Assembly: GCA_024653965.1 (NCBI GenBank)
Contig: JANLGW010000019.1
Coordinates: forward strand, 1-43,463
DNA length: 43,463 nt
Origin: Rhodospirillales bacterium
GTDB lineage: Bacteria; Pseudomonadota; Alphaproteobacteria; Rhodospirillales; Magnetovibrionaceae
Direction of reading: 5' to 3'
Under the pieces are notes generated by a model. It was not told the DNA's origin, ran no database searches, and saw only the letters and a list, made by a program, of their open reading frames with translations. How positions within the stretch are numbered: position 1 is the stretch's first letter; each line of letters opens with the position of its first letter. This document shows, in pieces, positions 368 through 28,093 of this stretch. A program made the position numbers and the translations under genes.

Positions 368-2263
368 TCATCCATGAGATGCTAGGTTAGGCTCTAATTC
401 AAACAATTTACTTTTTCGTTCAACAGAGAAAATGGCATCCTCCGACACGCCGAGTTCAGTAAATTGTTTGATGATTTCATCCCTATAGAGAGACATCATG
501 ATCAGAATGGCAGGATTATCAAATTTATCCATACTCTCCTGATCTCTCATGAAGATGTCATAGCTTTGCAGGTATTTTTTGCCGACCCGTGTAATGTTGT
601 TGTCGATGATACCTTTTATATTTAGCTGCTTATAATCAAGATCGATTAGTTTAAAATATTCAAGGAATTTATCCTCAAATATGCTTGGAGATATAAGCAA
701 TGATCCATATGTTTCATGTAATTTAAGGATCTCTTCTTTTTGCTCTTGCAGCTGATGCTGAAGATTTGGAAATATGCTGGGGTTCATGTCAAAACGCAAA
801 CTGCAGGAACGACAGCCAAGGCGGTACATCTCGACGCGTGTAACAACCATGTTCCCATATGTCATCGTGTCTTTACAATGTGGGCACTCTAAATCACATG
901 TGTAACTTTCATGTTCGGTTCTATCGTCTTTTTTGATGGATACAATTTTAGCATAATGTCGGCCTTGCGCAGAATATGTCGCCATTTTTGATAACAAGGC
1001 AGCATATTGGTCTGCATTTAGCTGTGTCAGGTTTAAGGACGGTGTGCCTGCACGAATAAAAGCAGCACGGTCCTTGATGATACCTTTTTGAATGGCATAG
1101 TCGTAAAGAGGAGTGCCAGGGTAAGGGGCTATTCGACCAAGATTGATTTTATATTCTGTATGTTGTTTCCACCATTCCAGCGTTTCTTCACTTGTTTCTA
1201 CAGTTTCGGCTGGGTCGCCAAAAATGAAGTTACCCTGAATGCAAATTTTATGATCTTTCGCTTGTTTGAGGGATGCTTCAATTTTTTCGCGGGTGACGCC
1301 AAATTTTTTCATGCTCATCAGAACATCGTTGCTCATGCTTTCCAGACCGTAGCTGAGTAAATAGCAGCCAGAGTCTTTCATGATGGATATTGTCTTATCA
1401 TCGAGAGAGCCAGGCCAGAGCTGGCATGTCCATAACACGTTGTATTTTTTGATTCTTTCAGCAAACTCTACAAGACGTTTTTTACTGGCAGACATCATTT
1501 CGTCCAGAAGGAAAACCAGATTGATGTCGTACTTTTCGATCATATCTTCGATTTCATCGAATACACGATCCAAGCTTCTCACACGATATTTTTTACCAAC
1601 AGGGTGAAAACAGAAAGTGCAGTGGAGCGGACATGAGCGACTTGTTACAATTGGAAGGACACGCGGGAAATCTAGGGGCCAAAGATGGGCACTGCACAGG
1701 GGGTTTTGTCTTTGGAAATAATCTTCTAGGTCAAATATTGAGTAATCGGGGTTTGGAAGTGAATCTAGGTCATCAATTGCGGCGCGTTCCGGCGTGAATA
1801 CATATTGGCCATTTTCACGATAAGCAATGCCGTGAATATGGTTGCATTCACGTCCATCTTTTAAGTTGTCCATCAGTTCTTTGATGGTAACTTCGCCTTC
1901 GCCGAGAACAGCAAAATCAGGCTGAAGTTCGCTGCAAACTGTTTCTTTGTCACTGGTTACGATGCCACCGCCTAGAATTGTCGTGATGCTTGGATCAATT
2001 TTTTTGACAGACGACAAAATTGCATCAATGCCATAGAAGAATGCGGATAGACCACCCGTTAATACGGCGTGAACTTTATTGATCGCCAGATATTTTGCTA
2101 GAACATCAAACTCTTCTTCTTCTTCGTGGGTGTTCATATTGACAGCCTGAACAGTATATCCAGCTTCCTTAAGAACACTTGAGACATATGACAAACCTAA
2201 GGGAAGGTCATAATACTCATTTTTTCTTCTGACGAATTTTGGGACGACAATAAGAATGTTCAT
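368..2263 (-). CDS. B12-binding-type radical SAM protein with a C-terminal zinc-ribbon-like segment
   Basis: A 631-aa radical SAM enzyme. The N-terminus (about 1-135) has the cobalamin-binding-domain pattern of the BchE/methylase class: PLGLSYVSSVL at 21-31, a glycine-rich ILGGG turn near 96-100 and LGEGE at 120-124. The 4Fe-4S motif CxxxCxxC uses Cys211, Cys215 and Cys218. After the radical SAM core there is a four-cysteine segment, CPHC at 460-463 and CRSC at 484-487, resembling a zinc ribbon, then a roughly 140-aa helical tail. Such enzymes usually methylate unactivated carbon or phosphorus, or rearrange carbon skeletons; the substrate is unknown. It is transcribed divergently from the glycosyltransferase gene, so its promoter lies in 2264-2527. 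The family call is firm and the substrate is not. Confidence 0.88.
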   Translation of the reverse strand: MNILIVVPKFVRRKNEYYDLPLGLSYVSSVLKEAGYTVQAVNMNTHEEEEEFDVLAKYLAINKVHAVLTGGLSAFFYGIDAILSSVKKIDPSITTILGGGIVTSDKETVCSELQPDFAVLGEGEVTIKELMDNLKDGRECNHIHGIAYRENGQYVFTPERAAIDDLDSLPNPDYSIFDLEDYFQRQNPLCSAHLWPLDFPRVLPIVTSRSCPLHCTFCFHPVGKKYRVRSLDRVFDEIEDMIEKYDINLVFLLDEMMSASKKRLVEFAERIKKYNVLWTCQLWPGSLDDKTISIMKDSGCYLLSYGLESMSNDVLMSMKKFGVTREKIEASLKQAKDHKICIQGNFIFGDPAETVETSEETLEWWKQHTEYKINLGRIAPYPGTPLYDYAIQKGIIKDRAAFIRAGTPSLNLTQLNADQYAALLSKMATYSAQGRHYAKIVSIKKDDRTEHESYTCDLECPHCKDTMTYGNMVVTRVEMYRLGCRSCSLRFDMNPSIFPNLQHQLQEQKEEILKLHETYGSLLISPSIFEDKFLEYFKLIDLDYKQLNIKGIIDNNITRVGKKYLQSYDIFMRDQESMDKFDNPAILIMMSLYRDEIIKQFTELGVSEDAIFSVERKSKLFELEPNLASHG

Positions 2264-2527
2264 GGGGCCCCCGTTTGTAAAATTCTTCTCAAAACATTTC
2301 TAAGTTTTAAGCTATCAAAAATAAAAATTAGCGTCACTAAATCATTCACCCTGACTTCAATGGTGAACTGTGTTTGATGAAGAACCAGTGAAATATGGAG
2401 CCACAGTTTCTTAAGAAAGAGAGATTAAAATGATGCCCCTGATTGGGGAGGCCTTATAGTTTATCTTTAGCTTTAAAGTGTTAAATAGCGGCCTGAGTCG
2501 AGTCAACAAAATGGATAACGATACAAT
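2264..2527. promoter_or_regulatory. Divergent AT-rich intergenic region with inverted repeats
   Basis: This region separates two divergent genes and should hold both promoters. No confident -35/-10 pair or sigma-54 site was found. It contains short inverted repeats: TTCACC at 2345-2350 with GGTGAA at 2362-2367, and AACTGTG at 2366-2372 with CACAGTT at 2402-2408. A small CCCC/GGGG hairpin lies near 2435-2450. Any of these could be an operator, but the evidence is only symmetry. Confidence 0.35.
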
Positions 2528-3520
2528 ATGAACCCTTTATTGGCTATTTGTGTGCCGACAGTTAATCGTGCAGATTTTTTGGATTTTTTTCTTGAGACGC
2601 ATGTGCCGATCATGAAAGAACATGATGTTCCGATTTATATCAGTGACAATGCCTCGACAGATGCGACCCAAGATATTGTGACAAAATGGCAAAATGAATA
2701 CCCATATATTTTTTGCAAGCGCCAATCTGTGATCTGTAATTTAGATGAAAATGCGATCAATGCCCTCAGCATGTCTAAAGAAAAATATGCATGGCTGATG
2801 GGTGATTCGTATGAAATAACAAAAGAATCATTAGAATCTATTTTGCTAAACCTTTATGATGCAGAATATGATATGGTTATCGTTAATCTTTCAAATAAAA
2901 TAACAGCATATAAAAATAAAACATATACTGATTGCAATGAATTTATTAGTGAAGTGGCATGGATATCAACGTGTGTTTCATGTAATATTTATAGTCGTGA
3001 TCTGATAGACAATGGTCAACATGGTGGATACAGCGACACGAATTTTGGGCAATTGGGTTTTATTCTATCTTACATTGCGCATAAAGATTTCAAGCTCCGC
3101 TGGCTACAGGATGTTTCTGTTGTGACATTGAAAACACCAGTGCGTAAGGAGGAAGGTTGGAACCAAGTTTATCTGGATATTCTTTTTCGGAATTGGCAGA
3201 ACTTTATTAAAATTCTGCCGGAGGTGTATACAGCAGAAAGCCGAAAAAAATTGCAAGATGCCCTGTATGTAGAAGGAACAATGTTTCATCCAAGGCGGTT
3301 GCTGCATTTGCGGGCAAAAAACATTATTAATTCGGAAAATTTGCAACTTTATTCGAAAGAATTTAATCAATTACCAGATCCAAACACTTTGAAATTAGCT
3401 AAAATACTGAACCAAATCCCAGTCAGAATGTGTCACGTTCTGGTGCAAACGATCGAATGGATCAGGCGCCGAAACTATCGGATCAGAAACGCGTTGGGTC
3501 TATGGCCATCTAATAGATAA
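2528..3520 (+). CDS. Family 2 (GT-A fold) glycosyltransferase
   Basis: A 330-aa protein with the GT2 N-terminal fold: the nucleotide-binding strand LAICVPTVNRADFL (5-18), the ISDNASTDAT segment (38-47), and MGDSYE (91-96) at the place of the usual metal-binding DxD. The last residue of the canonical DDD/DxD motif is not obvious, so activity or metal use may differ. The C-terminus is basic and rich in aromatic residues (RRRNYRIRN), possibly for membrane or carrier association. It probably transfers a sugar in the flagellin or surface-glycan pathway of this island; donor and acceptor cannot be told. The gene is AT-rich and has no strong Shine-Dalgarno sequence before the ATG. Confidence 0.82.
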   Translation: MNPLLAICVPTVNRADFLDFFLETHVPIMKEHDVPIYISDNASTDATQDIVTKWQNEYPYIFCKRQSVICNLDENAINALSMSKEKYAWLMGDSYEITKESLESILLNLYDAEYDMVIVNLSNKITAYKNKTYTDCNEFISEVAWISTCVSCNIYSRDLIDNGQHGGYSDTNFGQLGFILSYIAHKDFKLRWLQDVSVVTLKTPVRKEEGWNQVYLDILFRNWQNFIKILPEVYTAESRKKLQDALYVEGTMFHPRRLLHLRAKNIINSENLQLYSKEFNQLPDPNTLKLAKILNQIPVRMCHVLVQTIEWIRRRNYRIRNALGLWPSNR

Positions 3521-3840: not shown

Positions 3841-5520
3841 ATGACAAGAATACTGTTCATCATCCCGCCCCATCTGTTTTTTGAAGATTTTCTACACCCA
3901 TTAAGCAACGCCAAGCAAATCAGAAAAAAAGATGGGAAATTGTACGGTAGCCTTGTTACGGACATGCCGCTGGGAGCCTTGTCCCTAAGCGCATACATAA
4001 AAAAATATTGCAAAACCAAAGTTGAAACCGAGTTGGTGGATTTCAACATCGAGCTCAATGAAATTGACACGTTTGCACACGCATCGCCGTCCGAATATTA
4101 TGAAGAATATTTGCGCAATGAGCTAGGCTCAGAGCCCGACATAATCGCTCTTTCCGCCCTCTTCTCATCTTCATATTACAACTTGCTCGACATTGTCGCG
4201 TGCTGCCGGAAAATCTTTCCCAATGCGCTCATCCTGGCTGGCGGCAGTGTTCCGACAAGCATGTATGAGTACCTGTACAAAGCAACGGATGCTTTCGATG
4301 CCTTGTGTTACGGAGAAGGCGAGGTACCGTTCACGCAGTTGATCGATGCCGAAGACCGCAATACCTTCATTGACCAGCACCCCAGTTGGATTACGCCCAA
4401 GAAAATCGCTGAAAAAGCCATGTTCTCTCATGATTTCATCGAAGATTTGGATGAGATTCCCTTTTACGATTACGCCATATGCAAAATGGCAAAATACGGT
4501 GCCAACCCAGCAATTATGGCCTATGGATCCATCAAGGATAAAATCGACAACTTCCACGTCATGACCTCGCGCGGTTGCCCATTTCGGTGCACGTTCTGCG
4601 CTTCTCACAAGGTACACGGGCGCGCCATGCGCTATTACAGCATGGATCGCGTGAAGGAAGACCTTCTGCGCCTCAAAGATATGTATGGGGCCAAAATCAT
4701 CGTCTTCCAGGACGATCACTTCATGGCCGATACCGAGCGCGCTAAAGAAATTGCCCGGTTTGTTTCCAGCTTAGGCCTGAAAGCCGTTTTCCAAAATGGC
4801 CTAACATTGTATGCGCTTGATAGGGACATGCTACAGGTCCTCAAAAATGCTGGGGCAGATCAACTTGTCCTGCCCGTTGAGTCCGGAAGCGCGCGTGTTT
4901 TGAAAGAAATCATGCGTAAACCCTTGAAACTCGCGATTGCTGAACGCGTTGCCGACGATTGCCGTGATCTTGGTATCTATACCAACGTCAACATCCTCAT
5001 CGGGATGCCTGGCGAAACGAAAAAAGATATCGAGGACTCGCGCCAGTTCCTCCGAAAACTTAACGCAAACTGGAAAATTATTATCGTTGCGACGCCGCTT
5101 GTTGGCGCAGAGATGCACGACATCTGTGTCGAAAAGAATTATATCGATTCAGCAGATATCGGCTGCGATTTCAGAAAAGCCGTCGTTGAGACAGAGGATT
5201 TCACGGCAAAATACATTCAAGACATTACTTATGACATCAATCTGGATGTCAACTTCCTGTACAACACCGATTTTAGGCTCGGCGAATACGAATTGGCGCT
5301 GAAAGGCTTTGAAACCGCTATCCGCGCAAAAGACGATCACGGGTTTGCCTACCATTATGCCAGTATGTGTTACGAACAACTGGGCGATCTTGAAAAGTCG
5401 GAAGAGTACAAGAAAATCGCCATCAACTGTTATGAGAACAACCCGGTATGGCGGGCGGCCTTTGAAAAGTTCAACATTTCCCCTTACGATCGTAACGTAC
5501 AAATGGCGAAATTCGCTTAG
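3841..5520 (+). CDS. B12-binding-type radical SAM protein with C-terminal TPR-like region
   Basis: A 559-aa radical SAM enzyme. The N-terminal region (1-165) follows the B12-binding pattern, with MPLGALSLSAYIKKY at 42-56, ILAGGS near 131-136 and YGEGEVPF at 157-164. The cluster motif is Cys246, Cys250 and Cys253 (SRGCPFRCTFC). An ESGS segment, a typical SAM-contact element, lies in the barrel. The last ~85 residues form a TPR-like helical pair (LGEYELALKGFETAIRAKD and an ADxGx-like partner), suggesting protein-protein contact or a carrier-bound substrate. It follows the glycosyltransferase by 320 nt and has a good AAGGA site. It probably performs a methylation or other radical step on the glycan or a precursor; the substrate is unknown. 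Confidence 0.88.
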   Translation: MTRILFIIPPHLFFEDFLHPLSNAKQIRKKDGKLYGSLVTDMPLGALSLSAYIKKYCKTKVETELVDFNIELNEIDTFAHASPSEYYEEYLRNELGSEPDIIALSALFSSSYYNLLDIVACCRKIFPNALILAGGSVPTSMYEYLYKATDAFDALCYGEGEVPFTQLIDAEDRNTFIDQHPSWITPKKIAEKAMFSHDFIEDLDEIPFYDYAICKMAKYGANPAIMAYGSIKDKIDNFHVMTSRGCPFRCTFCASHKVHGRAMRYYSMDRVKEDLLRLKDMYGAKIIVFQDDHFMADTERAKEIARFVSSLGLKAVFQNGLTLYALDRDMLQVLKNAGADQLVLPVESGSARVLKEIMRKPLKLAIAERVADDCRDLGIYTNVNILIGMPGETKKDIEDSRQFLRKLNANWKIIIVATPLVGAEMHDICVEKNYIDSADIGCDFRKAVVETEDFTAKYIQDITYDINLDVNFLYNTDFRLGEYELALKGFETAIRAKDDHGFAYHYASMCYEQLGDLEKSEEYKKIAINCYENNPVWRAAFEKFNISPYDRNVQMAKFA

Positions 5521-5551
5521 TTGAGCGAAAGCGTGCGATCATGAGTCCGCG

Positions 5552-5643: not shown

Positions 5644-5745
5644 ATGCAAGACCTCAAGCGTGCGATCGAAGTCATAGACGCAGCCATTGCGAACTCGCGA
5701 TTAGGACTAAGCGTTATTTTGAAAGTTATCTATTGTTATGACTGA
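5644..5745 (+). pseudogene. Remnant of a second Nudix gene N-terminus
   Basis: A 33-codon frame begins MQDLKRAIEVIDAAIANSRL and continues GLS before losing similarity and stopping at TGA. It matches the first 22 or so residues of the Nudix protein that starts at 5738 (MTDITDAIKLIEDAVQDPKL, then GLG) in a pattern of D, AI, I-D/E, A and K/R-LGL at the same spacing. It is best read as the 5' stub of a tandem paralogue whose body was deleted; its end overlaps the start of the intact gene by 8 nt. It might instead act as a leader peptide whose translation couples to the downstream start. Confidence 0.6.
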
Positions 5746-6247
5746 TATTACAGATGCCATAAAATTGATAGAGGACGCCGTACAGGATCCTAAACTGGGG
5801 CTTGGCGATGAAATTTTCTTCATGGTTAGTCGTTTGACGCCGATGACCAACGTTGACCTTTGGATCAAGAATTCTAACAATGCGACATTGTTGTCATGGA
5901 GAGACGACGAGTTTCATGGGCCGGGCTGGCATTTGCCAGGGGGTATTCTTCGATATAAAGAAACTTTCGCAGAGCGCATAGCCGCTGTAGCGTGGATTGA
6001 ACTTGGTGCGAGCGTAACGTTCAACGAAATACCATGCATGATCAGACCGATCATGAACCAAACTCGCAACACGCGCGGACACTTCATTTCCTTATTATTT
6101 AAGTGCGAGTTCCTCACCCCGCCTGATGGGGAGCGCGCCTTTAAAGGGGCAGATCCGTTGCCAGGAGAATGGGCTTGGCATGAAAACAAACCTGATAATT
6201 TGATACCCGAACACGCTCTTCAATATGGCAGCATTTTTGAGCGCTGA
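5738..6247 (+). CDS. Nudix hydrolase of the GDP-mannose mannosyl hydrolase type
   Basis: A 169-aa protein with the Nudix region of GDP-mannose mannosyl hydrolases: NVDLWIKNSNNATLLSWRDD, then GPGWHLPGGILRYKETFAERI, then ELGASV. The Nudix box keeps the G-x5-E start and the ELG end, but the central REUxEE arginine and glutamates are largely replaced, as in the GDPMH branch, which hydrolyses nucleotide sugars by a different metal arrangement. It probably hydrolyses an NDP-hexose, perhaps GDP-mannose or a related sugar, as a supply or clean-up step. A stub of a paralogue lies directly upstream. The start is ATG, next to the stub's stop. Confidence 0.8.
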   Translation: MTDITDAIKLIEDAVQDPKLGLGDEIFFMVSRLTPMTNVDLWIKNSNNATLLSWRDDEFHGPGWHLPGGILRYKETFAERIAAVAWIELGASVTFNEIPCMIRPIMNQTRNTRGHFISLLFKCEFLTPPDGERAFKGADPLPGEWAWHENKPDNLIPEHALQYGSIFER

Positions 6248-6491: not shown

Positions 6492-7592
6492 ATGAGTGAT
6501 CAAGAGATGTCAGCGGTTGTTCAGCCCAGAATTTATTCTGCGCCGAAAGTGCGGCTTGAAGAACAAGTTCCTTTGAGAACACCATTTTCAGCTCATATCG
6601 ATGTATCCAGCTTATGCAATTTCAAATGTAGCTTTTGCTTCCAAGCAGACAGCGTGGCTATGAAAAAAGCAGATCTTAAAAGAGGGATGATGCCGGTTGA
6701 TCTGTTCAAGAAGATCGTCGACGACCTAGGGGAATTCGACGATAAGTTGAAAAAAATCAAAATTGGAAATCACGGTGAGCCCACGCTGCACCCCGATCTT
6801 CCCGAGATGATCGCATATGCTCGCAACAAAGGTGTTGCCGAAACAATTGAGTTGTTCACCAACGCTTCAAAGTTGACCCCCGAATTGAACCAGGCCATCG
6901 CAGATGCTGGCCTGCAGCGGATCAATATTTCGTTGGAGGGACTGACCTCCGAACGATATATGCAAGTCGCTAATGTGCGCCAGGATATGGATGAATTGAT
7001 CCGTAATATCGCTCATTTATACAGCGTTCGGGGGGAATGCAAAATGTACATAAAAATAGCCGATCGAACCAGTTCTTTTGACAAGGCGGATCATCGTATC
7101 CACGTTTTGAACGAAGAAGAGCGGGAGTATTTTTATGCGATGTTCGGAAACATTTGTGATGAAATTTACATCGAACGAATTGTCCCGCAGTGGGCTGAGA
7201 CGCAGGCGGATAAACAAAACGAAGTTGATGAAACGGGGATGTATGATCAAACAATTAAAAAATATAAAGAGATATGTCCCTTTGTCTTTATGTACTTACA
7301 TTTTAACTGTGATGGCACAACCAGTCCCTGTACGTTGGATTGGCCCCGAAAAGTTGTGATCGGTAATGTGATCACTCAAAGCGCGAAAGAAATATGGGAA
7401 GGCGATGCTCTTCGCCAGTTGCGCGTAGCGATGCTTAAAGAAGCAAGGAACAAGATTAACTTCTGCAACAACTGCTCGGCACCTATGGTGTGCGTTGATG
7501 AGGACTTAGATCCATACAAAGCTGATGTGCTCCAGAAGATGGGTGTGTGTGAGAACGAAACATTAGAAAACAATATGTGGGTAAAAGCATAA
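6492..7592 (+). CDS. Radical SAM/SPASM protein
   Basis: A 366-aa radical SAM protein with its cluster motif near the N-terminus: Cys42, Cys46 and Cys49 (SLCNFKCSFC). The conserved GEPTLHP element (usually GGEPLLHP) follows. The C-terminal ~110 residues have the cysteine pattern of a SPASM auxiliary-cluster domain, with CPF, FNCDG, SPC, then FCNNC and MVC. SPASM enzymes include peptide maturases and sugar- or alcohol-oxidising dehydrogenases. In a nucleotide-sugar cluster, oxidation, deamination or epimerisation of a sugar is the most likely role, but this is inference. It heads a tightly packed plus-strand operon, with the next ATG only 1 nt after its stop. Confidence 0.87.
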   Translation: MSDQEMSAVVQPRIYSAPKVRLEEQVPLRTPFSAHIDVSSLCNFKCSFCFQADSVAMKKADLKRGMMPVDLFKKIVDDLGEFDDKLKKIKIGNHGEPTLHPDLPEMIAYARNKGVAETIELFTNASKLTPELNQAIADAGLQRINISLEGLTSERYMQVANVRQDMDELIRNIAHLYSVRGECKMYIKIADRTSSFDKADHRIHVLNEEEREYFYAMFGNICDEIYIERIVPQWAETQADKQNEVDETGMYDQTIKKYKEICPFVFMYLHFNCDGTTSPCTLDWPRKVVIGNVITQSAKEIWEGDALRQLRVAMLKEARNKINFCNNCSAPMVCVDEDLDPYKADVLQKMGVCENETLENNMWVKA

Positions 7593-16245: not shown

Positions 16246-16938
16246 ATCCGAGTTTGCATAATCCCCGCACGAGGGGGAAGCGAGAGGATTCCGCATAAGA
16301 ACATCAAGTTTTTTTGCGGCAAACCCATCATCGCGTATTCCATCACAGCCGCCCTGGAAAGTCAGTGTTTCGATAGAGTTATCGTATCCACTGATTCACC
16401 TGAAATCGCCGATGTGGCTAGAAAGTACGGCGCTGAAGTGCCGTTCCTTCGCCCCGCAGAACTGGCCGATGCCTATATAGGCATTGGGGGCCCCCTCAGC
16501 CATGCGATCAATTGGTTGCGTGAAAATGACCGGCAACCAGATTTTGTCTGCCTTTTGCTCGCAACGGCTCCGTTTGTGCGACCGCAAATACTCCGAGATG
16601 CCTTCTCTCTGCTCGAAAAAAATCCATCCAAATTCTTTTGTTTTGGCGTCGTTAAGTTTGAGGCTCCGATCCAACGCGCCTTTAAAATTTCGCAACAGGG
16701 CACGATAGAGATGTTCCAGCCGGAATACTTTGAATCCAGATCCCAAGACCTGGAGCCAGCTTATCACGATGCCGCGCAATTTTGTTGGGGACGAATAGAG
16801 GGCTTTTTGAACGAAATACCCCCATTTTCAGGCCATTCTATACCCTACATTCTACCATCGTCAGAAGTTCAGGACATTGATACACAGGAAGACTGGGATA
16901 AAGCCGAAAAAATGTATTGCCGTGGAAAGGACGCATAG
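16246..16938 (+). CDS. pseF: CMP-pseudaminic acid (nonulosonate) cytidylyltransferase, ATC start proposed
   Basis: A 230-aa CMP-nonulosonate synthetase that activates pseudaminic acid or a relative with CTP. From 16246 the frame reads (M)RVCIIPARGGSKRIPHKNI, the exact family N-terminus including the CTP-binding ARGGSKRI loop. It continues with CGKPIIAYSI, VSTDSPEIA, and ends with QDIDTQEDWDKAE, also typical. There is no ATG, GTG or TTG in frame between the TGA at 16234-16236 and these essential motifs; the ATC at 16246 sits 7 nt after GAGG where the family has its Met. Either ATC is used, an ATG was mutated, or there is a frameshift or sequence error. A start at GTG 16414 would remove the active site. 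pseG follows after 11 nt. Confidence 0.85.
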   Translation: MRVCIIPARGGSERIPHKNIKFFCGKPIIAYSITAALESQCFDRVIVSTDSPEIADVARKYGAEVPFLRPAELADAYIGIGGPLSHAINWLRENDRQPDFVCLLLATAPFVRPQILRDAFSLLEKNPSKFFCFGVVKFEAPIQRAFKISQQGTIEMFQPEYFESRSQDLEPAYHDAAQFCWGRIEGFLNEIPPFSGHSIPYILPSSEVQDIDTQEDWDKAEKMYCRGKDA

Positions 16939-20797: not shown

Positions 20798-21058
20798 ATG
20801 ACAGACACAATAAAAGCCGAAATTCAATCCTTCGTAGCAGACTATATTCGCAATCACGCTACAGGGGAGGAGGTGGTGGTGGACGAAACAACCAATTTTG
20901 TTGACAGTCGCCTTCTTGATTCGTTTGCAATTTTAAGTCTAATTTTAACGCTAGAAACTCAATATTCAGTTCGATTTCAACCTCAAGAATTAGTTGATCC
21001 CCGCTTACACACTGTGGGGGGGCTTACACAGGTGATTAATAATAAAACCACCACGTAA
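20798..21058 (+). CDS. Acyl/peptidyl carrier protein
   Basis: An 86-aa acidic, helical protein with the carrier-protein fold. The phosphopantetheine site is DSRLLDSFAILSL, where the Ser of LLDSF replaces the usual G(x)DSL serine context. A GAGGATGAT ribosome-binding region precedes the ATG. It lies 11 nt after pseI and 11 nt before an adenylating ligase, so the pair probably loads an organic acid on this carrier for transfer to the sugar. The identity of the acid cannot be read from the sequence. Confidence 0.85.
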   Translation: MTDTIKAEIQSFVADYIRNHATGEEVVVDETTNFVDSRLLDSFAILSLILTLETQYSVRFQPQELVDPRLHTVGGLTQVINNKTTT

Positions 21059-21069: not shown

Positions 21070-22602
21070 ATGGCGTACATCTATACTGCCTTTCGCGATA
21101 TGGCAAAGCGTTTCCCGCAAAAAAATGCGCTGGTCGCTCAAGGTCAGATCCATAGTTATGGAGCGCTCAGCCGTCAGGCGGATTTGTGGGCGGCGTTCCT
21201 GTATGCGCGAATTGAACAAAAACAGCCTCGGGTTGCCATTCTTGTAGAAGACCCATTCCATTCCATAACAATCTCTTTAGGGGTCGCGCGCCTTGATGGG
21301 GTTTGTATACCAACCAATTCGCAGTTGCCGTCAGAACAACAGCTAGAAAATTGGGAAACGACGGATGTTTGTGTTGTCATCTACGAGCCTATTCTCGAGC
21401 ACAAAATTAAAGCGTTGATGTGTGGCGACCTCATCTTTATTTCCACACGAGAGCTTGAGCACTTTGAATCTGACACGGTAACTTCTGAAATACCAGCTTC
21501 TTTCCCGTGGACGGACCAAGCCGGTTTTCTGATCGCGTTTTCTTCGGGCTCGACGGGCACGCCTAAGCCGACGGTTTTATCGCAAGAGACAAAGTGTAAA
21601 CGCGCAAAACAAACTTGGGATTTATACAATCTCTCATCTGACGATGTTGTGCTGTGCGCATCCCCTTATTTTCATTCTTTGGGGCAACGCTTGGTCTATG
21701 TGGCGCTATTGCTCGGCGCAACCCTGGTGTACGTTACAAAGTTTGCGCCAAAGCTTTGGCTTGGTCTTGTTCATGAGTATAAAGTCAGCTTTGCCATAAG
21801 TGTTTCCTCTCACCTATACGCGTTAAAAGACGCGCTTTTGCAAAATGCTGAGCAACTTCGATCTTTAAAAACCATTGTGACATCATCGGCACCGATTGAC
21901 GCAGGTTTTAAGAACCAACTCTTTGAAGCGATAGGCTGTGATTTTAACGAAATTTATGGCGCTACGGAAATTGCCATCGCCACCAATTTGACCAAGGACG
22001 ATGCAACCCAAAAATATATGACGGTAGGCACCCCGTGTTCAAATGTTCAGGTGCGCATTCTGGACGATGCGCGCAGAATTATCCCAATTAACACAATTGG
22101 TGAAATCGCGGTGAAGTCCCCTGTCGTCTTTGATGGCTATTATAAGCAACCTGAAGCCACACGGCAGGCCTTCATCGATGGCTTTTTCCTGACGGGTGAT
22201 TTGGGCTATTTTGATGGCGACGGCTTTCTGACGTACGTGTCACGAAAAAAAGACGTCATTATTTCTGGGGGGATCAATATATACCCCAAGGAGATTGAGG
22301 CAGTAATTGCCCAGGACGATGAGGTTCGTGAAGTAGCTGTCATTGGCGTTGAAGATAAAATGTTTGGTGAGGTCGCCATTGCCATATGCATTACCGAAGG
22401 CAATAAAAACATTGCCCCCCAACTCCATCGCCTTGCCAATATTCACTTAGCACCACATCAACGCCCACTGAAGTATTTTTTTCTAGAAAGCTTGCCCTTG
22501 ACGTCAACTGGCAAGGTCTCGAAGTTGGCATTGCGTGAGCATTTTAACGGATTAAATCAAGACTGGACGTTACCTCTGCGCAAGATAATTTATGGTGAAT
22601 GA
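21070..22602 (+). CDS. AMP-dependent acyl/aryl-type ligase
   Basis: A 510-aa ANL-superfamily adenylating enzyme. Core motifs are SSGSTGTPKPTVL (A3/P-loop), YGATEIAIATN (A5), LTGDLGYFDGDGFLTYVSRKKD (A7-A8), GGINIYPKEIE and TSTGKVSK with the catalytic lysine (A10). At the A4 position it reads CASPYFHSLGQ and lacks the Asp that holds the amino group in amino-acid domains, so a carboxylic or hydroxy acid is more likely than an amino acid. It follows a carrier protein and overlaps the next gene by 11 nt. It probably activates the acid and loads the neighbouring carrier. Confidence 0.87.
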   Translation: MAYIYTAFRDMAKRFPQKNALVAQGQIHSYGALSRQADLWAAFLYARIEQKQPRVAILVEDPFHSITISLGVARLDGVCIPTNSQLPSEQQLENWETTDVCVVIYEPILEHKIKALMCGDLIFISTRELEHFESDTVTSEIPASFPWTDQAGFLIAFSSGSTGTPKPTVLSQETKCKRAKQTWDLYNLSSDDVVLCASPYFHSLGQRLVYVALLLGATLVYVTKFAPKLWLGLVHEYKVSFAISVSSHLYALKDALLQNAEQLRSLKTIVTSSAPIDAGFKNQLFEAIGCDFNEIYGATEIAIATNLTKDDATQKYMTVGTPCSNVQVRILDDARRIIPINTIGEIAVKSPVVFDGYYKQPEATRQAFIDGFFLTGDLGYFDGDGFLTYVSRKKDVIISGGINIYPKEIEAVIAQDDEVREVAVIGVEDKMFGEVAIAICITEGNKNIAPQLHRLANIHLAPHQRPLKYFFLESLPLTSTGKVSKLALREHFNGLNQDWTLPLRKIIYGE

Positions 22603-23698
22603 AATGTGTGCAATGGATGGGGTATACATTTATGGAGCCGGCATTCAGGGAAAATTTTTTTTTGATATTATACAGTCAGAAGGTACGCGGATCGATTGTT
22701 TTGTAGATGATTATTACGAGGCCCCAACATGTAAGGGTAAACCCGTTATTCGGGCCCATGAAATTCGAAATAAACAAGCATATATTTTTATATCCGTCGG
22801 TCTTATCAGTACCAAAATTAAATCGAACTTGGTTTCTCAGGGGTTCGAAAATGTATTCGACTTTACCCAATCCGTATTAAAATTTCCGGCCATTATTCAG
22901 TCTTTGAAGGGTATGAGCCTTTGGTATTCAGACACGCTTTCTGACATGGTCAATGATGAGGGTATTGCTGAATTCCGAACGCTATTGAGTGATGAAAAAA
23001 GCAAAAACCTGCTGGATACAATAGCGGCTTTTCGGCGTGACTTCAGTCCCGAGAATTATGTTATCCCAGATGGGAACATACAATATTTTCCAGATGATAT
23101 TGACGTGTTTTCAAACATTGACGCCGTTCGATTTGTGGATGCGGGGGCGTATATAGGTGACACCGTTGGAACGTTGGCGCGTGTTTGCAAAGAGCGAAAT
23201 ATTTTCTTTGAATATGGGGCTTGTTTTGAACCCGATAGAAAAAACCTTGCCGCACTCAAATCCAGAGTGGCGAAGCTGCGGTCTGACGATAACGGGTTGC
23301 GATTTTTTGTTTACCCCGCAGGAGTCTGGCATCAGTCAGAAATCTTAACATTTAGCGCAGATCAAGCCGCGTCGAGTTGCGTCGTTGAGGGCATACGGGA
23401 TAAGGCTGTAACGAATTCAATTTCCGGTCTCGCCATTGATGATTGCCTGTTTAATGCGGCCCCAAATTTTATCAAGTTGGATGTTGAGGGGGCTGAGCAA
23501 AATGCCTTGATGGGGGCGCGACAGTGCATCGAAACTTATCATCCTGTACTGGCAATATGTCTCTACCATCGGCCGCGCGACCTATGGGAATTGCCGTTGT
23601 TCGTCCATAGCCTGTCCGTTAATTACGATATGTTTTTGCGTGTTTATGGCGATATGCTGCTTGAAACCGTTCTATACTGTGTGCCGAAGAAGGTCTAA
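22592..23698 (+). CDS. FkbM-family methyltransferase with N-terminal Rossmann-like domain
   Basis: A 368-aa protein. Residues 1-110 have VYIYGAGIQGKFFFDII, then DCFVDDY and YIFISVG, a nucleotide-binding-like domain also seen in the radical SAM gene at 8470 and at the C-terminus of the methyltransferase at 9779. The second half is FkbM-type: FVDAGAYIGDTVGTL (SAM motif I), CFEPDRKNL, FIKLDVEGAEQNALMGA and HPVLAICLYHRPRDLW. FkbM enzymes O-methylate sugars or polyketides, so O-methylation of the glycan or its acyl group is likely. It is the last gene of the pse operon, and its start overlaps the ligase. Confidence 0.88.
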   Translation: MVNEMCAMDGVYIYGAGIQGKFFFDIIQSEGTRIDCFVDDYYEAPTCKGKPVIRAHEIRNKQAYIFISVGLISTKIKSNLVSQGFENVFDFTQSVLKFPAIIQSLKGMSLWYSDTLSDMVNDEGIAEFRTLLSDEKSKNLLDTIAAFRRDFSPENYVIPDGNIQYFPDDIDVFSNIDAVRFVDAGAYIGDTVGTLARVCKERNIFFEYGACFEPDRKNLAALKSRVAKLRSDDNGLRFFVYPAGVWHQSEILTFSADQAASSCVVEGIRDKAVTNSISGLAIDDCLFNAAPNFIKLDVEGAEQNALMGARQCIETYHPVLAICLYHRPRDLWELPLFVHSLSVNYDMFLRVYGDMLLETVLYCVPKKV

Positions 23699-23745: not shown

Positions 23746-25338
23746 TCATGGCACGTTTGTATCTTGAGCGTATCCTGACCGGCTTGTAACACGAGGCAAC
23801 GCATTGGCTTCAGTCAAGCCAAACCGGGTCATTTGGTTTCGAGTTAGGGTATTGATTTCATCGCGGTAGGATTTAATTTCTTCCAGTGTCATGCCCTTGG
23901 CACGCAAGTAGGCAATTTCCCATAACGTATAGTCAGGGTTGATGAAGGTCACGTTGTCAATTTCCATGAATATGCGATTTACGTGTGCGGTGGCTTCTAC
24001 CCAGTTCATCGTGTTGTGGCTCCAAAATGCGCCTTCACCTTGGAGGCCATATTCTTGAGCGCGATCCTCAACTGGGGTGTGATGCAAGTAATAGAAGGGC
24101 TGTATGTAGTAGTAATCAAGATCAGACTCTTCGATGAATCTCTGAGTAATCTGTACGGTATGCTCCGTTTCACCGGGGAAACCCATGATGAACGACCCTA
24201 CGGTGAGGATATTTGCCTGTTTGAGCCAAGCAATTCCGCGTTTGTAGAAGTCTATGATTGCCCCTTTTTTCATGGCTTTTAAAATGTCGTTCGATCCTGA
24301 TTCAATACCTAGGTACACGCCGGCACAGCCGGTACTTTTCATTTTAGCCACGATCTTTTCGTCAATGTATTGCGCGCGAATGAAGGAATACCACGGAATA
24401 TTGAAACCGATCTCAATCATGATGTTGAGAACATTTTCAAAACGATCCTTCGGGACATTGAATGTATCATCAACAAAAAATATGGCGCTCAATTTGGCAT
24501 CCATTATTCTTTTTAATGTTAGACGAACATTTTCCATGCTGAGTGTCGCCAGCGGTCCGGCAACGGAAGGGTATGAGCAAAAGGCACACTTGAAAGAACA
24601 ACTCCGCGCCGTCCGAACGTTTGCAATGCTGCCGGGTAGAATGTTTTCAAAGCTGCTCAACGTAAAATTAATATCATTGTCCTCGGCGCTGCGGTGCGTG
24701 AGAACAATATCATTACCATCACGGATGACTAGATTAGGTATTGCATTCAATCGATTGGGGTATGTTTGGGCAATTTGCAGCATTGCATGTTCGCCCTGCG
24801 GGTCAACGACAAATGCATCAAATCCTGTGTCGCGCAGATACGACTTGGCAGTTTCGTCCGTGGCATGATTCAACGTCGTGAATACATGATGTCCACCTGC
24901 CATTAAAAAAGTGTTGGGAAATTGTTTGCGAAGGGTTTGCCCAAGCCCCATAAACTGTTTGAAAGTAAGTACAAACGTTGTAGATGCAGCAATGATGTCA
25001 GGGGCAAAATCGTGAAGATCAGTCCAGATTTTTTCGGCATTATGGTCATCTATGAAGTTGATGATTTTGACCTCAAAGCCGTGTGCTTTCAGCATTTGTG
25101 CCAATAACAATTGAGCGCATAAATACATCTCCCAAACACTAAATGGCGTTTCAGGAGGAAGGCCCTTTTTCTCTTTCAAATAAGCAATATGATCAATCAG
25201 CCGATCATCTTCCGTCAGGACACGCGTGTAGTTGAAGGCTTGCATCTGGGTTTTTGCACGGGCTGGGTTGGTCGATAGAGGCATGGACACGGGATTTGGA
25301 ACCATGTGGCCTATTAAAGCGATCTTTATAGCCGACAT
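23746..25338 (-). CDS. B12-binding-type radical SAM protein
   Basis: A 530-aa radical SAM protein. The N-terminal ~190 residues are of the B12-binding type but diverged, with FMGLGQTLRKQFPNTFLMAGGHHVF near 129-153. The cluster ligands are Cys247, Cys251 and Cys254 (RSCSFKCAFC). The barrel has FFVDDTFN, YLGIESGSNDIL and GSFIMGFPGET, typical of the BchE/Elp3-like barrel. It is probably a methylase or other radical enzyme with an unknown substrate. The start at 25338 shares one base with the stop of the acyltransferase gene (TAATG), so the pair is translationally coupled. The frame is open upstream to 25404, but that segment is antisense-like noise. Confidence 0.87.
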   Translation of the reverse strand: MSAIKIALIGHMVPNPVSMPLSTNPARAKTQMQAFNYTRVLTEDDRLIDHIAYLKEKKGLPPETPFSVWEMYLCAQLLLAQMLKAHGFEVKIINFIDDHNAEKIWTDLHDFAPDIIAASTTFVLTFKQFMGLGQTLRKQFPNTFLMAGGHHVFTTLNHATDETAKSYLRDTGFDAFVVDPQGEHAMLQIAQTYPNRLNAIPNLVIRDGNDIVLTHRSAEDNDINFTLSSFENILPGSIANVRTARSCSFKCAFCSYPSVAGPLATLSMENVRLTLKRIMDAKLSAIFFVDDTFNVPKDRFENVLNIMIEIGFNIPWYSFIRAQYIDEKIVAKMKSTGCAGVYLGIESGSNDILKAMKKGAIIDFYKRGIAWLKQANILTVGSFIMGFPGETEHTVQITQRFIEESDLDYYYIQPFYYLHHTPVEDRAQEYGLQGEGAFWSHNTMNWVEATAHVNRIFMEIDNVTFINPDYTLWEIAYLRAKGMTLEEIKSYRDEINTLTRNQMTRFGLTEANALPRVTSRSGYAQDTNVP

Positions 25339-25349
25339 TATGCTCTCTC
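25336..25349 (-). repeat. 14-bp direct repeat, copy 1
   Basis: The minus-strand sequence GAGAGAGCATAATG occurs here and again at 26136-26149, exactly 800 bp away. This copy holds the stop of the acyltransferase gene, the start of the radical SAM gene and its ribosome-binding site. Confidence 0.95.
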
Positions 25350-26138
25350 CGGGTTTTCGAGGACCATCGCGTAGGGGTCGTCTCGTACCATGGACATGGC
25401 GCAATCGTGCGCCTCTTTAACGGTCATGTAAGTGCTGTAACCATAGGCACAAGGCTTTCTTGTGAGCAGCCCGTGGTTTGTCATTAACTCTTCAACAGCG
25501 TTATAGTTTTCGAGGTATCTCCGGTGTTTGTTGCCATCGCGTAAATCTGCCGTCGGGCGGCCATAATATTCGACAATAATATCCAATATATTGCCATGAG
25601 CATCTTTTCGCCGTCGCGGTATCTGTATGGACTCTCTGTAAGGCACTCGGGCTGTGTACTCAACGTAATGCATATAACTTGCACCCTCATTAAAGTTTAC
25701 CCCTAACATGAGCATATGAAATCCATGCTCATGAAAAATTTGAAAGTCACAACCATCACCTAGCGATACGTTACCGCTAACAGTGTCGAGTAAATTGGCT
25801 TTATTGCCTACGCCCAAATGGCTGTGAATCGGGCAAGCGCTGCGATGCCAATTGCCTTGGTTCCAAATGAAGTTGGTGAGGCTACCCATTCCCTGAGGTT
25901 CTGTGTGATGTGGATCAAATATGTATCCTTCAGGCATATAAAGATTGAAGGCAGGGACGATCAACGTTCCCTGAGGGCCAATGGCATTTTGCAAGGCGTC
26001 GAATACGCTGGCCGCTCCACGTTGAAGATAGCCTAGGGCAAGCAAGCGGCTATGTACGAGGACATGGTGTCCAGAGCGCAAACCCAAATCGTAAAGATAG
26101 CTGTCCAATTCTTCGTCGGTGAGTTTTAGAATTGGCAT
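25338..26138 (-). CDS. AAC(3)-family N-acyltransferase
   Basis: A 266-aa protein of the aminoglycoside N3-acetyltransferase fold. It has GHHVLVHSRLLALGYL near the start, GPQGTLIVPAFN, then the conserved HRSACPIHSHLGVG (the RS-x2-P-x2-S motif) and GASYMHYVEYTARVPYR around the catalytic His/Glu. In surface-sugar clusters this fold acetylates or acylates amino-sugars rather than antibiotics, so an N-acyl transfer onto a nonulosonic acid or other amino sugar is likely. It is coupled to the downstream radical SAM gene. The whole gene lies between two perfect 14-bp direct repeats and follows an IS3 remnant, suggesting acquisition as a unit. Confidence 0.87.
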   Translation of the reverse strand: MPILKLTDEELDSYLYDLGLRSGHHVLVHSRLLALGYLQRGAASVFDALQNAIGPQGTLIVPAFNLYMPEGYIFDPHHTEPQGMGSLTNFIWNQGNWHRSACPIHSHLGVGNKANLLDTVSGNVSLGDGCDFQIFHEHGFHMLMLGVNFNEGASYMHYVEYTARVPYRESIQIPRRRKDAHGNILDIIVEYYGRPTADLRDGNKHRRYLENYNAVEELMTNHGLLTRKPCAYGYSTYMTVKEAHDCAMSMVRDDPYAMVLENPERA

Positions 26139-26318: not shown

Positions 26319-26343
26319 ATCTATCTCCTTCTAGGAGACAGAT
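26319..26343 (-). repeat. Imperfect hairpin overlapping carrier-protein stop and OrfA ribosome-binding site
   Basis: Arms ATCTATCTCCT (26319-26329) and AGGAGACAGAT (26333-26343) pair at 10 of 11 positions around a TCT loop. On the minus strand the hairpin spans the carrier-protein stop and the AGGAG before the OrfA remnant. It could be part of the left end of the IS, or fold the mRNA to hide that ribosome-binding site. Confidence 0.7.
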
Positions 26344-26597
26344 TCGAGTCTCAGGTTAGCAGCGCCACTATCCGTTAACTTGGCTTTGTAGGTTTGAATG
26401 ATTCCTGCCATGGACTGGTGGGTGCGAATGCCGTCATCATCTATACACACGCCATAGTGCTCTTCTAGCGCCATCATGACATTGAGATGACCAAGGCTGT
26501 CCCACATAGGATGGGCATTAAGGGCACTCATGTCACTGAGGCTATCAGTGCTGCATCCCAAAGCATCAGCAACCAAATCAAATGGGGATTTCAACAT
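26331..26597 (-). CDS. Acyl/peptidyl carrier protein (second)
   Basis: An 88-aa carrier protein. The phosphopantetheine site is HPMWDSLGHLNVMMALEE, with the canonical DSL serine. Helix II and the following acidic DDDG segment match the DltC/PCP type. It lies 23 nt after an adenylation-domain gene on the same strand and is the likely acceptor for the amino acid activated by it. Its last ~10 codons (ANLRLESVS) lead straight into IS3-derived sequence, so the C-terminus may have been reshaped by the insertion. Confidence 0.86.
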   Translation of the reverse strand: MLKSPFDLVADALGCSTDSLSDMSALNAHPMWDSLGHLNVMMALEEHYGVCIDDDGIRTHQSMAGIIQTYKAKLTDSGAANLRLESVS

Positions 26598-26620
26598 ATA
26601 GCGTTCCTTTCTGAAAACAC

Positions 26621-28093
26621 TTACACGTTCTTCTGAACGTGTTCTTCCAGCGCCCTATGGTCTATCTTATCATTAACATTTCGGGGCAATCTACTCACTT
26701 GATGAAAATACTTGGGAATTGCGTATGTTTCCAAGTGGTTGCCCAGGTGTTTAACGAGTTCTGATGGATTGAGGGGCTCTTTGGGATCTTGTTCTATGAA
26801 ACAATGAAGTTCGTTTCTAACCACGACGGCGTATGCCACGGTAGATGTTAACTTTCGGACAGCCGCATTTATATCTTCAAGTTCAATGCGGTAGCCATTT
26901 ATTTTGGCCTGAAAATCAATGCGAGATACGAAAAATAAATCGTTCTCTTCATAGGCCGCCCAATCCCCTGTGAAGTAAGCTTGAGTTGCCACGCCATTGA
27001 TATCAAGAGTGCGAAACGCTTGGTGCGTCGCTTTGGGATTGTTCCAATACCCTTTGGCGACTTGCGGCCCTGAAATGACGATTTCTCCTTCATTTGAGTG
27101 GCTACCTCCAACTAAATGCAGCTCCATCCCAGAAATGGGGGAGCCAAGCGCGGCGGAGGATTTGCAATGCAGTTTGTAGGTATCTGCCGTTAATTTTATG
27201 AGGGTAAAAGAGACGGTCGCTTCTGTTGGGCCATAGGTATTGTGTACGATGAGATTGGGAAGTGCTGAAAATAAACCGTCAAGATGCTCTGGCAATAATG
27301 GTTCACCGCAAAATGTCGCGAGGCGCAGCGTCCGCAAATGGGTGGTTGTAAGTTGTGTCGCTTGCATCATCATACCGATAACGCTCGGCACGGAATTCCA
27401 GATCGTCAGGCCATGTTTTTGAATGGTTCGTGCGGGCATCATGCGGTCAACTTCACTTGTGAATGGGTATAGTGTCGCACCACTACAGAGCGCCCCGTAG
27501 ATATCCAAAACACTTAAATCAAACGAAATGGGCGGGAACTGTGACCATTTATCGTTGGGCGAAGGGGCCATTGCCTGGATGGCCCAGTCAATGTAATGCC
27601 CCAGCCCTTGGCGCCCAACTTCAACGCCTTTGGGAATTCCGGTTGAGCCAGATGTGAAAATCACATACGCCAATTCATGTTGTGCAAGCGGCTGGGAGAG
27701 AACGTCATCACCAAGCTTGTCCAAATTGATGACCTGGGCTGAGCCAATTTGTGCAACATCGAGATCGCATTTATTTTGAGCATTAGTATTGGTGATGATG
27801 ACGTTAGGTTTAAATTGATCAATCACATTTTGTTGACGCTCAGCAGGAGCGTCCAGATTGATGGGGGCATAATACCCGCCCACCATGAGCGTAGCGAACA
27901 TTGCCGCATAGGCATTGGCACCCTGTGGCAGGCAAATTAAAACTTTAGGATGTGAACACACGGCTGTTTCGTGTGCAATCCTGGATATGAAGTGGGCCAG
28001 TTCTCCAAAGGTGATGACGCCGCATGCCTCATGCACGGCTTTATGATCTGGCATGCGGGCCGCTATATCAAAAAAGCGATCTAAAACGTCCAT
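26621..28093 (-). CDS. Amino-acid adenylation domain protein (DltA/NRPS-like)
   Basis: A 490-aa stand-alone adenylation enzyme. Core motifs include YVIFTSGSTGIPKGVEVG (A3), FPPISFDLSVLDIYGALCSG (A4, with the Asp that binds the substrate amino group), HNTYGPTEATVSF (A5), YFTGDWAAYEENDLFFVSRIDFQAKINGYRIELEDI split over A7-A9, and NDKIDHRAL at A10. It should activate a small amino acid and load the adjacent carrier. The ATG at 28093 begins MDVLDRFFDIA; a TTG 15 nt further upstream is also possible. The IS3 OrfB remnant ends about 20 nt before the start, so the native promoter was probably lost or replaced. Confidence 0.88.
   Translation of the reverse strand: MDVLDRFFDIAARMPDHKAVHEACGVITFGELAHFISRIAHETAVCSHPKVLICLPQGANAYAAMFATLMVGGYYAPINLDAPAERQQNVIDQFKPNVIITNTNAQNKCDLDVAQIGSAQVINLDKLGDDVLSQPLAQHELAYVIFTSGSTGIPKGVEVGRQGLGHYIDWAIQAMAPSPNDKWSQFPPISFDLSVLDIYGALCSGATLYPFTSEVDRMMPARTIQKHGLTIWNSVPSVIGMMMQATQLTTTHLRTLRLATFCGEPLLPEHLDGLFSALPNLIVHNTYGPTEATVSFTLIKLTADTYKLHCKSSAALGSPISGMELHLVGGSHSNEGEIVISGPQVAKGYWNNPKATHQAFRTLDINGVATQAYFTGDWAAYEENDLFFVSRIDFQAKINGYRIELEDINAAVRKLTSTVAYAVVVRNELHCFIEQDPKEPLNPSELVKHLGNHLETYAIPKYFHQVSRLPRNVNDKIDHRALEEHVQKNV

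Follow-up and report, generated by a model that had tools for sequence, protein, structure and literature searches.

Introduction

The flagellin glycosylation islands of Geobacillus are variable, low in GC content and carry transposase genes (PMC5109656), and the flagellar hypervariable regions of Clostridium are predicted to place pseudaminic acid (Pse) and 3,6-dideoxyhexoses (RfbF/G/H) on flagellin (PMC13317340). In Shewanella oneidensis, the sfmABCDE genes, which encode NeuB, an IlvB-type thiamine diphosphate (ThDP) enzyme, a reductase and a methyltransferase, are each required for motility in soft agar, and three of them are required for most filaments; the flagellin of this organism probably bears an acetylated Pse and a methylated second moiety (PMC3765264). 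(Papers are cited by PMC number and, word counts apart, from excerpts of their text.) Here we analyse a related kind of locus on a contig of 43,463 nucleotides from a Rhodospirillales bacterium of the Magnetovibrionaceae (JANLGW010000019.1, assembly GCA_024653965.1). This stretch, hereafter the window, is an entire contig (C7) of a genome of 2.99 Mb in 153 contigs, and positions 368-28093 are filled with 23 glycan-type genes, five of which encode radical S-adenosylmethionine proteins (rSAM1 to rSAM5). A preliminary description of this DNA had proposed that the five rSAM proteins serve one undescribed pathway to a heavily modified flagellin sugar. Our study suggests that the locus is probably a flagellin glycosylation island of modular build, assembled by horizontal transfer, with two sugar routes and an aminoacyl module. 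It is a mosaic of three modules (A, B and C) that recur in the flagellar loci of relatives.

Results

Both the location of the island and its nature as a locus for flagellin glycosylation have good support. The window opens with the C-terminal 64 residues of a flagellin (1..196, coding 2-196, forward strand; NCBIfam flagellin models, best E 5.8e-16), only this part being present because the contig ends there, and this C-terminus is 84% identical to that of the flagellin of a congener, G004. The Flagellin_N family has no match in the window's own genome, which we attribute to the gene being split by contig ends: another contig, C149, ends with a Maf gene (MptE-like, 109 bits against a cut-off of 34.6) followed by the first 25 residues of a flagellin, and the genes before Maf, read by eye, encode FlgD, FliK and a GT41-like tetratricopeptide repeat protein. 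By synteny, we infer that the N-terminus on C149 and the C-terminus in the window belong to one flagellin gene. In G004, a single unbroken contig has the order FlgK-FlgL-FlaF-orf299-FlbT, a 36.7-kb stretch in which most genes are of glycan type, flagellin, Maf, the GT41-like gene, FliK and FlgD; therefore, the island most likely also runs through flagellin into Maf in the window's genome, where the join would follow this order. On the right, the island is bounded by FlbT (28860..29327, reverse strand; Pfam FlbT, 104 bits) and FlaF (30384..30860, reverse strand; Pfam), and the flagellin and flbT/flaF boundaries described before are thus upheld, the flagellin piece being a C-terminus cut by the contig end. 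The GC content of the island is 45.2%, compared to 54.7% in the flank from 28860 onward, and broken transposase remnants lie at its edge beside flbT (28100..28860, reverse strand; frame translations).

All five rSAM proteins have the CxxxCxxC motif and exceed the Pfam Radical_SAM cut-off of 29.5 (62, 82, 62, 36 and 77 bits, in order), as had been noticed from the motif, and three of them (at 368, 3841 and 23746) have B12-binding matches above the Pfam cut-off, in agreement with the three B12-type members reported. Two SPASM proteins had also been reported; the one at 6492 has a Pfam SPASM match, whereas the one at 8470 has none. The genome as a whole has 25 Radical_SAM matches, with two of the window's five among the matches listed. 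In 20,000 simulations with 25 randomly placed points, any five of them came together within about 23 kb in 0.1% of the runs, a figure to be read bearing in mind that rSAM genes need not be independent of each other.

FlbT was matched in 38 of 60 genomes and the FlbT neighbourhoods of 13 matching relatives were compared. For G004, G013, G015, G007 and G009, the rSAM proteins were counted with a local profile to which those same proteins had in part contributed. In four of the 13, rSAM genes lie between FlbT and flagellin on one contig: five in G004, all open reading frames (ORFs) with CxxxCxxC, five in G013, four in G015 and at least three in G006 (three among the Pfam matches listed; two by the local profile, of which one has the motif). 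In two more, they follow FlbT in an interval that is not closed by flagellin (three in G007, up to the contig end, and three in G009, with no flagellin within 40 kb), and G011, where the contig ends, is uninformative. Maf adjoins flagellin in G004, G006, G013 and G015. The spot between flbT and flagellin/Maf thus holds rSAM glycan genes in several relatives, and a flagellin glycosylation island, as first proposed, is the most likely reading. The proposal of one pathway with five linked rSAM proteins is, however, not supported as it was put: the full set of five was seen in none of the other genomes compared, three belong to the branched-sugar module, one is an optional addition to the aminoacyl module and, for rSAM1, the flagellar loci examined contain no ortholog.

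Module A consists of RfbH, a YerE-like ThDP-dependent carboligase, an HpcH-type aldolase, a HAD phosphatase, a short-chain dehydrogenase/reductase (SDR), a C-methyltransferase and three rSAM proteins, and its predicted product, judged from these families, is a C-branched 3,6-dideoxyhexose carried on CDP. RfbH makes CDP-3,6-dideoxy-4-keto-D-glucose, the substrate of YerE. The window's RfbH, a CDP-4-keto-6-deoxyglucose 3-dehydrase (E1; 14617..15993, reverse strand; 717 bits against a cut-off of 423), matches the E1 structure 3bcx with 631 bits, and has a histidine at the place of the pyridoxal phosphate (PLP) lysine and all four cluster cysteines, which we take to be the PLP-lysine replacement and the [2Fe-2S] ligands. 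The carboligase (10977..12773, forward strand; ThDP motif GDG...NN) is assigned by its sequence matches in the PDB, of which JanthE (8rph) is the best, with 409 bits, while acetolactate synthase reaches 234 bits. JanthE belongs to the YerE-like enzymes; YerE itself transfers activated acetaldehyde onto CDP-3,6-dideoxy-4-keto-D-glucose, and ErwE prefers 4-hydroxy-2-oxo acids (PMC12188165, PMC12247030). RfbF, RfbG and RfbH neighbour the ThDP gene in some relatives. In the window's own genome, RfbG (406 bits, above cut-off) is on contig C55, where it follows a contig-end fragment 49% identical to the annotated RfbF of Brachyspira.

Two genes on the reverse strand lie between the carboligase and RfbH, a phosphoglycolate-phosphatase-like HAD phosphatase (12904..13557; Pfam; NCBIfam 153 bits against a cut-off of 180) and a class II pyruvate aldolase-like protein of the HpcH/HpaI type (13572..14357; Pfam 27.1 bits against a cut-off of 25). 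Since a sequence search of the PDB with the latter gave nothing useful, its fold was modelled; the AlphaFold model is a barrel (pLDDT 85), and the solved structures nearest to it include class II pyruvate aldolases (HpaI, SwHKA; TM about 0.6), pyruvate kinases and the citrate synthase SbnG. 4-Hydroxy-2-oxo acids are the product class of HpcH/HpaI aldolases, and the aldolase may therefore feed the YerE-like carboligase; in G038 and G431, an HpcH gene comes after that of the ThDP enzyme.

The remainder of module A is on the forward strand and consists of rSAM2 (B12-binding and radical SAM; 3841..5520; Pfam), a NUDIX-like protein with a weak match to GDP-mannose mannosyl hydrolase (5738..6247; NCBIfam E 2.8e-5, below cut-off), rSAM3 (radical SAM and SPASM; 6492..7592; Pfam), a NAD-dependent epimerase/dehydratase of the SDR type (7594..8463; Pfam), rSAM4 (radical SAM with an extra N-terminal domain; 8470..9747; Pfam, SPASM-type by eye only) and a SAM-dependent C-methyltransferase (9779..10927; Pfam, Methyltransf_23/14 architecture). 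The N-terminal domain of rSAM4 is related to the C-terminal domain of this methyltransferase (hhalign P 2.2e-6, probability 89%) and gave a probability of 53% with the N-terminal domain of the FkbM methyltransferase of the island. A domain common to several tailoring enzymes was considered and rejected, the other four hhalign pairs being without support.

The ThDP enzyme was found at E<=1e-110 in 15 of 317 genomes of the order and in eight of 289 genomes of the class, own genome counted in both, but at 70-82% identity only in G013 (82%), G007 (80%) and G547 (70%) among the genomes searched. These three all carry the NUDIX, rSAM2, rSAM3, SDR, rSAM4, C-methyltransferase, ThDP, HAD, HpcH, RfbH and family 2 glycosyltransferase (GT2) genes, partly rearranged; rSAM2 is 84, 94 and 78% identical and rSAM3 92, 88 and 76% identical in G013, G007 and G547, respectively, and the NUDIX-like gene adjoins rSAM2 in each. 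Close copies of module A are in flagellar loci in four of four genomes, own included. The module is beside FlbT in G013 and G007. G547, of another family, has the order FlgD-FliK-flagellin-FlbT-FlaF-GT41-like-Maf, module A, RfbG-RfbF, module B, FlgL-FlgK, in which the block is flanked by Maf and FlgL instead of FlbT and flagellin, and RfbG-RfbF follow RfbH and complete the CDP-sugar route. A more distant version is found in G033, where Maf, a ThDP enzyme (39%), a C-methyltransferase (36%) and rSAM2 (51%) are beside flagellin-FlbT-FlaF. At the seven other ThDP loci of the class scan, RfbF and RfbG are near in four (G038, G225, G131, G247) and RfbH in three, a related SDR adjoins in two and HpcH follows directly in one (G038); in G131 and G247 the SDR (33-34% identity) lies between RfbH and the ThDP gene. 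Among 11 ThDP loci of the order scan, HpcH is present in G547 and G431, and RfbH in G547 and G466.

This recurrence bears on whether the rSAM proteins might instead modify flagellin itself, by C-methylation or cross-linking, alongside an ordinary glycan pathway. The SPASM and B12 families have many peptide-modifying members (NCBIfam lists), and lysine methylation of flagellin has been reported in Shewanella (PMC3765264). However, rSAM2-4 are interspersed among the SDR, C-methyltransferase and ThDP genes, with which they form a recurring block, the sets of rSAM genes vary among genomes that share 63-67% flagellin identity with G004, and the rSAM3 relatives on a Brachyspira plasmid lie beside rfbF and glycosyltransferases in a stretch with no annotated flagellin, all of which leads us to consider modification of the polypeptide unlikely. 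The rSAM proteins would rather add methyl or other groups to a sugar.

Module B consists of PseF, a PseG-GNAT fusion, a Gfo oxidoreductase, PseI, an acyl carrier protein (ACP1) and a ligase, all on the forward strand, and is predicted to make an N-acylated Pse. PseI (pseudaminate synthase; 19734..20786) scores 433 bits against a cut-off of 340, PseG (16950..18584) 163.5 against 153.6, and PseF (CMP-pseudaminate synthetase; 16237..16938, start approximate) 193 against 206 on an ORF that lacks the N-terminus. Upstream, the PseF frame stays open as far as about 16237, but none of ATG, GTG and TTG occurs where the start would be expected (16230-16420), and PseF likely uses a rare start codon; it is 87% identical in G007. 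The C-terminal domain of PseG is possibly PseH-like; its model (pLDDT 70) is GNAT-like, with AAC(6')-Ie as first PDB match and PseH (4xpk) as second (E 1.1e-4). This GNAT-like fold suggests that the ligase and ACP1 may deliver an acyl group other than acetyl. The Gfo/Idh/MocA oxidoreductase (18592..19737; Pfam) is kept between PseG and PseI in G007, G015 and G547, ACP1 (20798..21058; weak NCBIfam ACP matches below cut-off, DS motif) adjoins PseI in the same three genomes, and the gene order of the whole module, which ends with the acyl-CoA/ACP ligase (21070..22602; Pfam AMP-binding and AMP-binding_C), is kept in them. The pse genes announced earlier are thus present as a partial set: within the island, neither PseC nor PseH was recognised, nor was PseB, for which no directed search was made, and PseC (486 bits against a cut-off of 423.5) is outside the island on contig C74. 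An FkbM O-methyltransferase with a PglD_N-like N-terminal domain (22592..23698, forward strand; Pfam/NCBIfam) follows module B in the window; it is unmatched in G015 and G547, and the G007 contig ends.

Module C consists of a DltA-like adenylation enzyme, a carrier protein and an AAC(3)-like transferase, accompanied here by the PhpK-like rSAM5, and is predicted to add an aminoacyl group. All are on the reverse strand: the adenylation enzyme (26621..28093; TIGR01733 302 bits against a cut-off of 317, TIGR01734 290 against 560), carrier protein 2 (26331..26597; NCBIfam ACP E 1e-5, below cut-off; DSL motif) and the N-acyltransferase (25338..26138; Pfam Antibiotic_NAT), which is below the NCBIfam AAC(3) cut-off (73 against 270 bits) and 63-66% identical in G004 and G006. 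With them, both carrier/adenylation pairs and both methyltransferases of the preliminary description, as well as its RfbH and ThDP enzyme, are accounted for. The AAC(3)-like protein has a match at E<=1e-40 in seven of 317 genomes of the order, own counted; the adenylation enzyme lies within three genes of it in all seven and the carrier in six (it was undetected in G456). In six of the seven, the module shares its contig with flagellin or Maf at a distance of at most 26 kb; G463 has no match to either from the start of the contig up to 40 kb. A DUF4910 protein, named from its G013 homologue, is beside module C in the other six genomes but not in the window, and G013 has DUF4910 without an AAC(3) match. 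The nearest PDB sequence to the adenylation domain is an adenylation domain of a nonribosomal peptide synthetase, which, with the PhpK-like rSAM, might suggest a small-molecule cluster in which the adenylation/carrier pairs and the rSAM proteins make a secondary metabolite. The Pfam results contain no condensation, thioesterase or polyketide domains, however, and module C recurs with flagellin or Maf, such that we consider this explanation very improbable.

rSAM5 (23746..25338, reverse strand) is a B12 rSAM protein below the TIGR04479 cut-off (374 against 600 bits) and is therefore described as PhpK-like and not assigned as PhpK. Its ATG shares one base with the stop codon at which the AAC(3)-like gene ends, and it is 74% identical in G004. 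It accompanies module C only in the window's genome and G004 (G006 has no rSAM5 match, and the other four module C stretches have no rSAM by the local profile), and is therefore best seen as an optional add-on; a search of genome contigs found only the G004 contig and a 27% identical Omnitrophota protein. rSAM1 (B12-binding and radical SAM; 368..2263, reverse strand; Pfam) was found at E<=1e-80 in ten of 317 genomes of the order, own counted, the others being 35-40% identical, and is 39% identical to an Azospirillum oryzae plasmid protein; judged from these comparisons, it is island-specific here. A role in defence was also considered for the rSAM proteins and rejected, the PADLOC matches being weak only (pVip at most 52 bits, PDC-M51A at most 50 bits).

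The remaining gene of the island encodes GT2 (2528..3520, forward strand; Pfam), the only glycosyltransferase that Pfam recognised in its scan of the 23 proteins of 368-28108; relatives with 39-40% identity are beside module A in G013, G007 and G547. The transposase frames at the right edge are IS630-like and IS3-like, and an IS3-like frame with a similar C-terminus is present on contig C74. An ORF at 28366-28863 was rejected as a gene, having no family match and overlapping the broken transposase frames. Between flbT and flaF, a 299-residue protein (29387-30286) without a Pfam or NCBIfam match is kept at the same place with 53-62% identity in G004, G006, G009 and G015. FlgL, below its NCBIfam cut-off, and FlgK follow (30979..35057, reverse strand; NCBIfam/Pfam), and three iron-ABC-transporter-like genes (ATPase, permease and binding protein, read by eye) are beside the flagellar genes at 39095-43037. 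The window has no tRNAs and no RNA families at the gathering threshold, and megablast of positions 1-12000 against plasmids gave no match.

The hot spot holds further genes in relatives. Another module (D), absent from the window, is beside FlbT in G013 (L108 9530-19470; Pfam) and G004 (L072/L007; by eye), and consists of NeuB, a fused cytidylyltransferase, a methyltransferase, a SPASM rSAM, a split transketolase, a SDR and an ATP-grasp ligase. A glycosyl hydrolase family 57 protein, also absent from the window, adjoins flagellin in G004, G006 and G013 (L107 5833-7833, L008 7431-9431), with a 44% relative in the G009 stretch. Outside these genomes, six places on a plasmid of Deltaproteobacteria bacterium Smac51 are similar to rSAM4, the best (L187 17359-18609) being annotated as a hypothetical protein near asparagine-synthase and perosamine-synthetase genes.

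Discussion

Gene content, protein families, flagellar context and the recurrence of the modules place the island among flagellin glycosylation loci, and families and neighbours support two sugar routes. Each reaction, the order of the reactions and the linkages set out here are our proposal, and the radical steps are predictions. In the first route, module B would produce a CMP-Pse derivative, the N-acyl group of which would come from the ligase/ACP pair via the GNAT domain fused to PseG; FkbM possibly O-methylates this derivative, and Maf, encoded across the flagellin gene, would transfer it to flagellin. In the second, RfbF and RfbG, on C55 here and beside module A in G547, would yield CDP-4-keto-6-deoxyglucose, from which RfbH would take off the 3-hydroxyl; the YerE-like carboligase would then attach a carbon branch to C4, and the 2-oxo acid for this step perhaps comes from the HpcH-type aldolase together with the HAD phosphatase. 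Tailoring of the CDP-linked sugar would fall to the SDR, the C-methyltransferase and rSAM2-4, and GT2 may join it to the nonulosonate. In module C, a small amino acid would be charged onto the carrier and transferred by the AAC(3)-like enzyme to an amino sugar, with rSAM5 methylating either the aminoacyl group or the sugar. It is quite possible, if somewhat short of probable, that the flagellins carry an undescribed glycan of this composition: an ACP-acylated Pse, a C4-branched 3,6-dideoxy sugar made by an aldolase-fed ThDP carboligase with two or three rSAM proteins acting on the CDP-sugar, and an optional radical-methylated aminoacyl cap. The flagellar role seen in the sugar pathway by the preliminary description is retained in this proposal, while the RfbH/YerE/aldolase logic of the main sugar had been missed.

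Several observations weigh against this proposal or parts of it. Six of the 13 FlbT neighbourhoods (G002, G005, G017, G018, G019, G021) have no rSAM between FlbT and flagellin. Among 17 less similar ThDP loci (G547 and family members left out), the local profile finds an rSAM near the ThDP gene in eight (G355, G427, G022, G370, G421, G466, G033, G180) and none in nine (G431, G038, G418, G474, G225, G321, whose stretch ends at a contig end, G131, G247, G108). G038 and G431, whose ThDP enzymes are 57% identical and which have HpcH, show no rSAM in the stretches compared, where the flagellar proteins used as queries had no match either; the aldolase thus appears to track the ThDP enzyme rather than the rSAM proteins, and related branched sugars would also be made for other glycans. 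G013 has module A without module B, and the acceptor of the second sugar can therefore differ. Three loci with relatives of rSAM1 (G005, G025, G346) have no flagellar matches beside them. Lastly, RfbF/RfbG and PseC are on other contigs, and precursor supply is assumed.

RfbH is an O-antigen gene in enteric bacteria and the G038 and G431 copies are not near flagellar genes, two points that favour a role of the island in making lipopolysaccharide (LPS) O-antigen or capsule sugars, its flagellar location being coincidental. That YerE-like enzymes are known from LPS (PMC12247030) and that an rSAM protein is encoded within a Campylobacter capsule cluster (PMC8743553) point in the same direction. 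Yet, the Pfam scan of the 23 island proteins revealed no flippase, polymerase, ligase or ABC exporter, there is a single glycosyltransferase, the locus is linked to Maf, and the close copies of module A, own included, all travel with flagellar genes and not with an O-antigen or capsule cluster. We thus regard coincidence as improbable and retain the flagellin glycosylation island as the likely explanation.

If our proposal is right, rSAM chemistry and YerE-type C-C bond formation, known from cofactors, antibiotics and LPS, enter flagellin glycosylation, and the products of whole gene sets could be read off one abundant and easily purified protein. The conserved modules also give unassigned rSAM proteins predicted substrates, through the association of rSAM2-4 with RfbH, YerE and HpcH, and that of AAC(3) with a carrier and an adenylation enzyme. 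Moreover, the hot spot would provide a natural series of module swaps with which to ask what flagellar glycans do.

Like the Geobacillus and Clostridium loci, the window has swappable blocks of glycan genes in a flagellar locus, and with those of Geobacillus it also shares a low GC content and transposase genes; unlike it, these loci have no YerE-like carboligase or C-branched sugar mentioned in the excerpts of PMC5109656 and PMC13317340. The phrase 'radical SAM' occurs 0 times in these two papers and in PMC3765264. The sfmABCDE genes resemble the window in being a NeuB/ThDP/reductase/methyltransferase set, one that is required for flagellin modification, and are nearer in gene content to module D of G004 and G013, which has an rSAM in addition, than to the window (PMC3765264). 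The yersiniose A and erwiniose pathways (RfbH with YerE or ErwE) share with the window CDP-4-keto-3,6-dideoxyglucose and a ThDP carboligase, JanthE being the top PDB match; they are known for LPS (PMC12247030), whereas the window's version is in a flagellar locus and has an HpcH-type aldolase, a C-methyltransferase and three rSAM genes besides. The plasmid pBHWA1 of Brachyspira hyodysenteriae encodes five consecutive rSAM3-like proteins (29-35% identical; L053 16001-21251) with rfbF, epimerases and glycosyltransferases, a block that its authors suggest changes lipooligosaccharide or glycosylates surface proteins (PMC4267127); this is a spirochaete plasmid and, in contrast to the window, the stretch has no annotated flagellin or pse genes and no YerE or RfbH match. 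rSAM genes have also been described as phase-variable in Campylobacter (PMC6321876), where a listed region, CFT03427_1545-1581, has two radical SAM enzymes, a SDR and methyltransferases close together and is possibly another rSAM glycan locus. We found no rSAM-linked flagellin glycan in the open-licence library searched, and such a link is not stated in the excerpts of PMC8743553, PMC6321876, PMC11878206 and PMC2791219. rSAM genes in surface-glycan clusters are not new as such, being present in the Campylobacter capsule cluster and on the Brachyspira and Azospirillum plasmids, and flagellin islands are known; it is the rSAM-rich, YerE-containing version of such an island that looks new.

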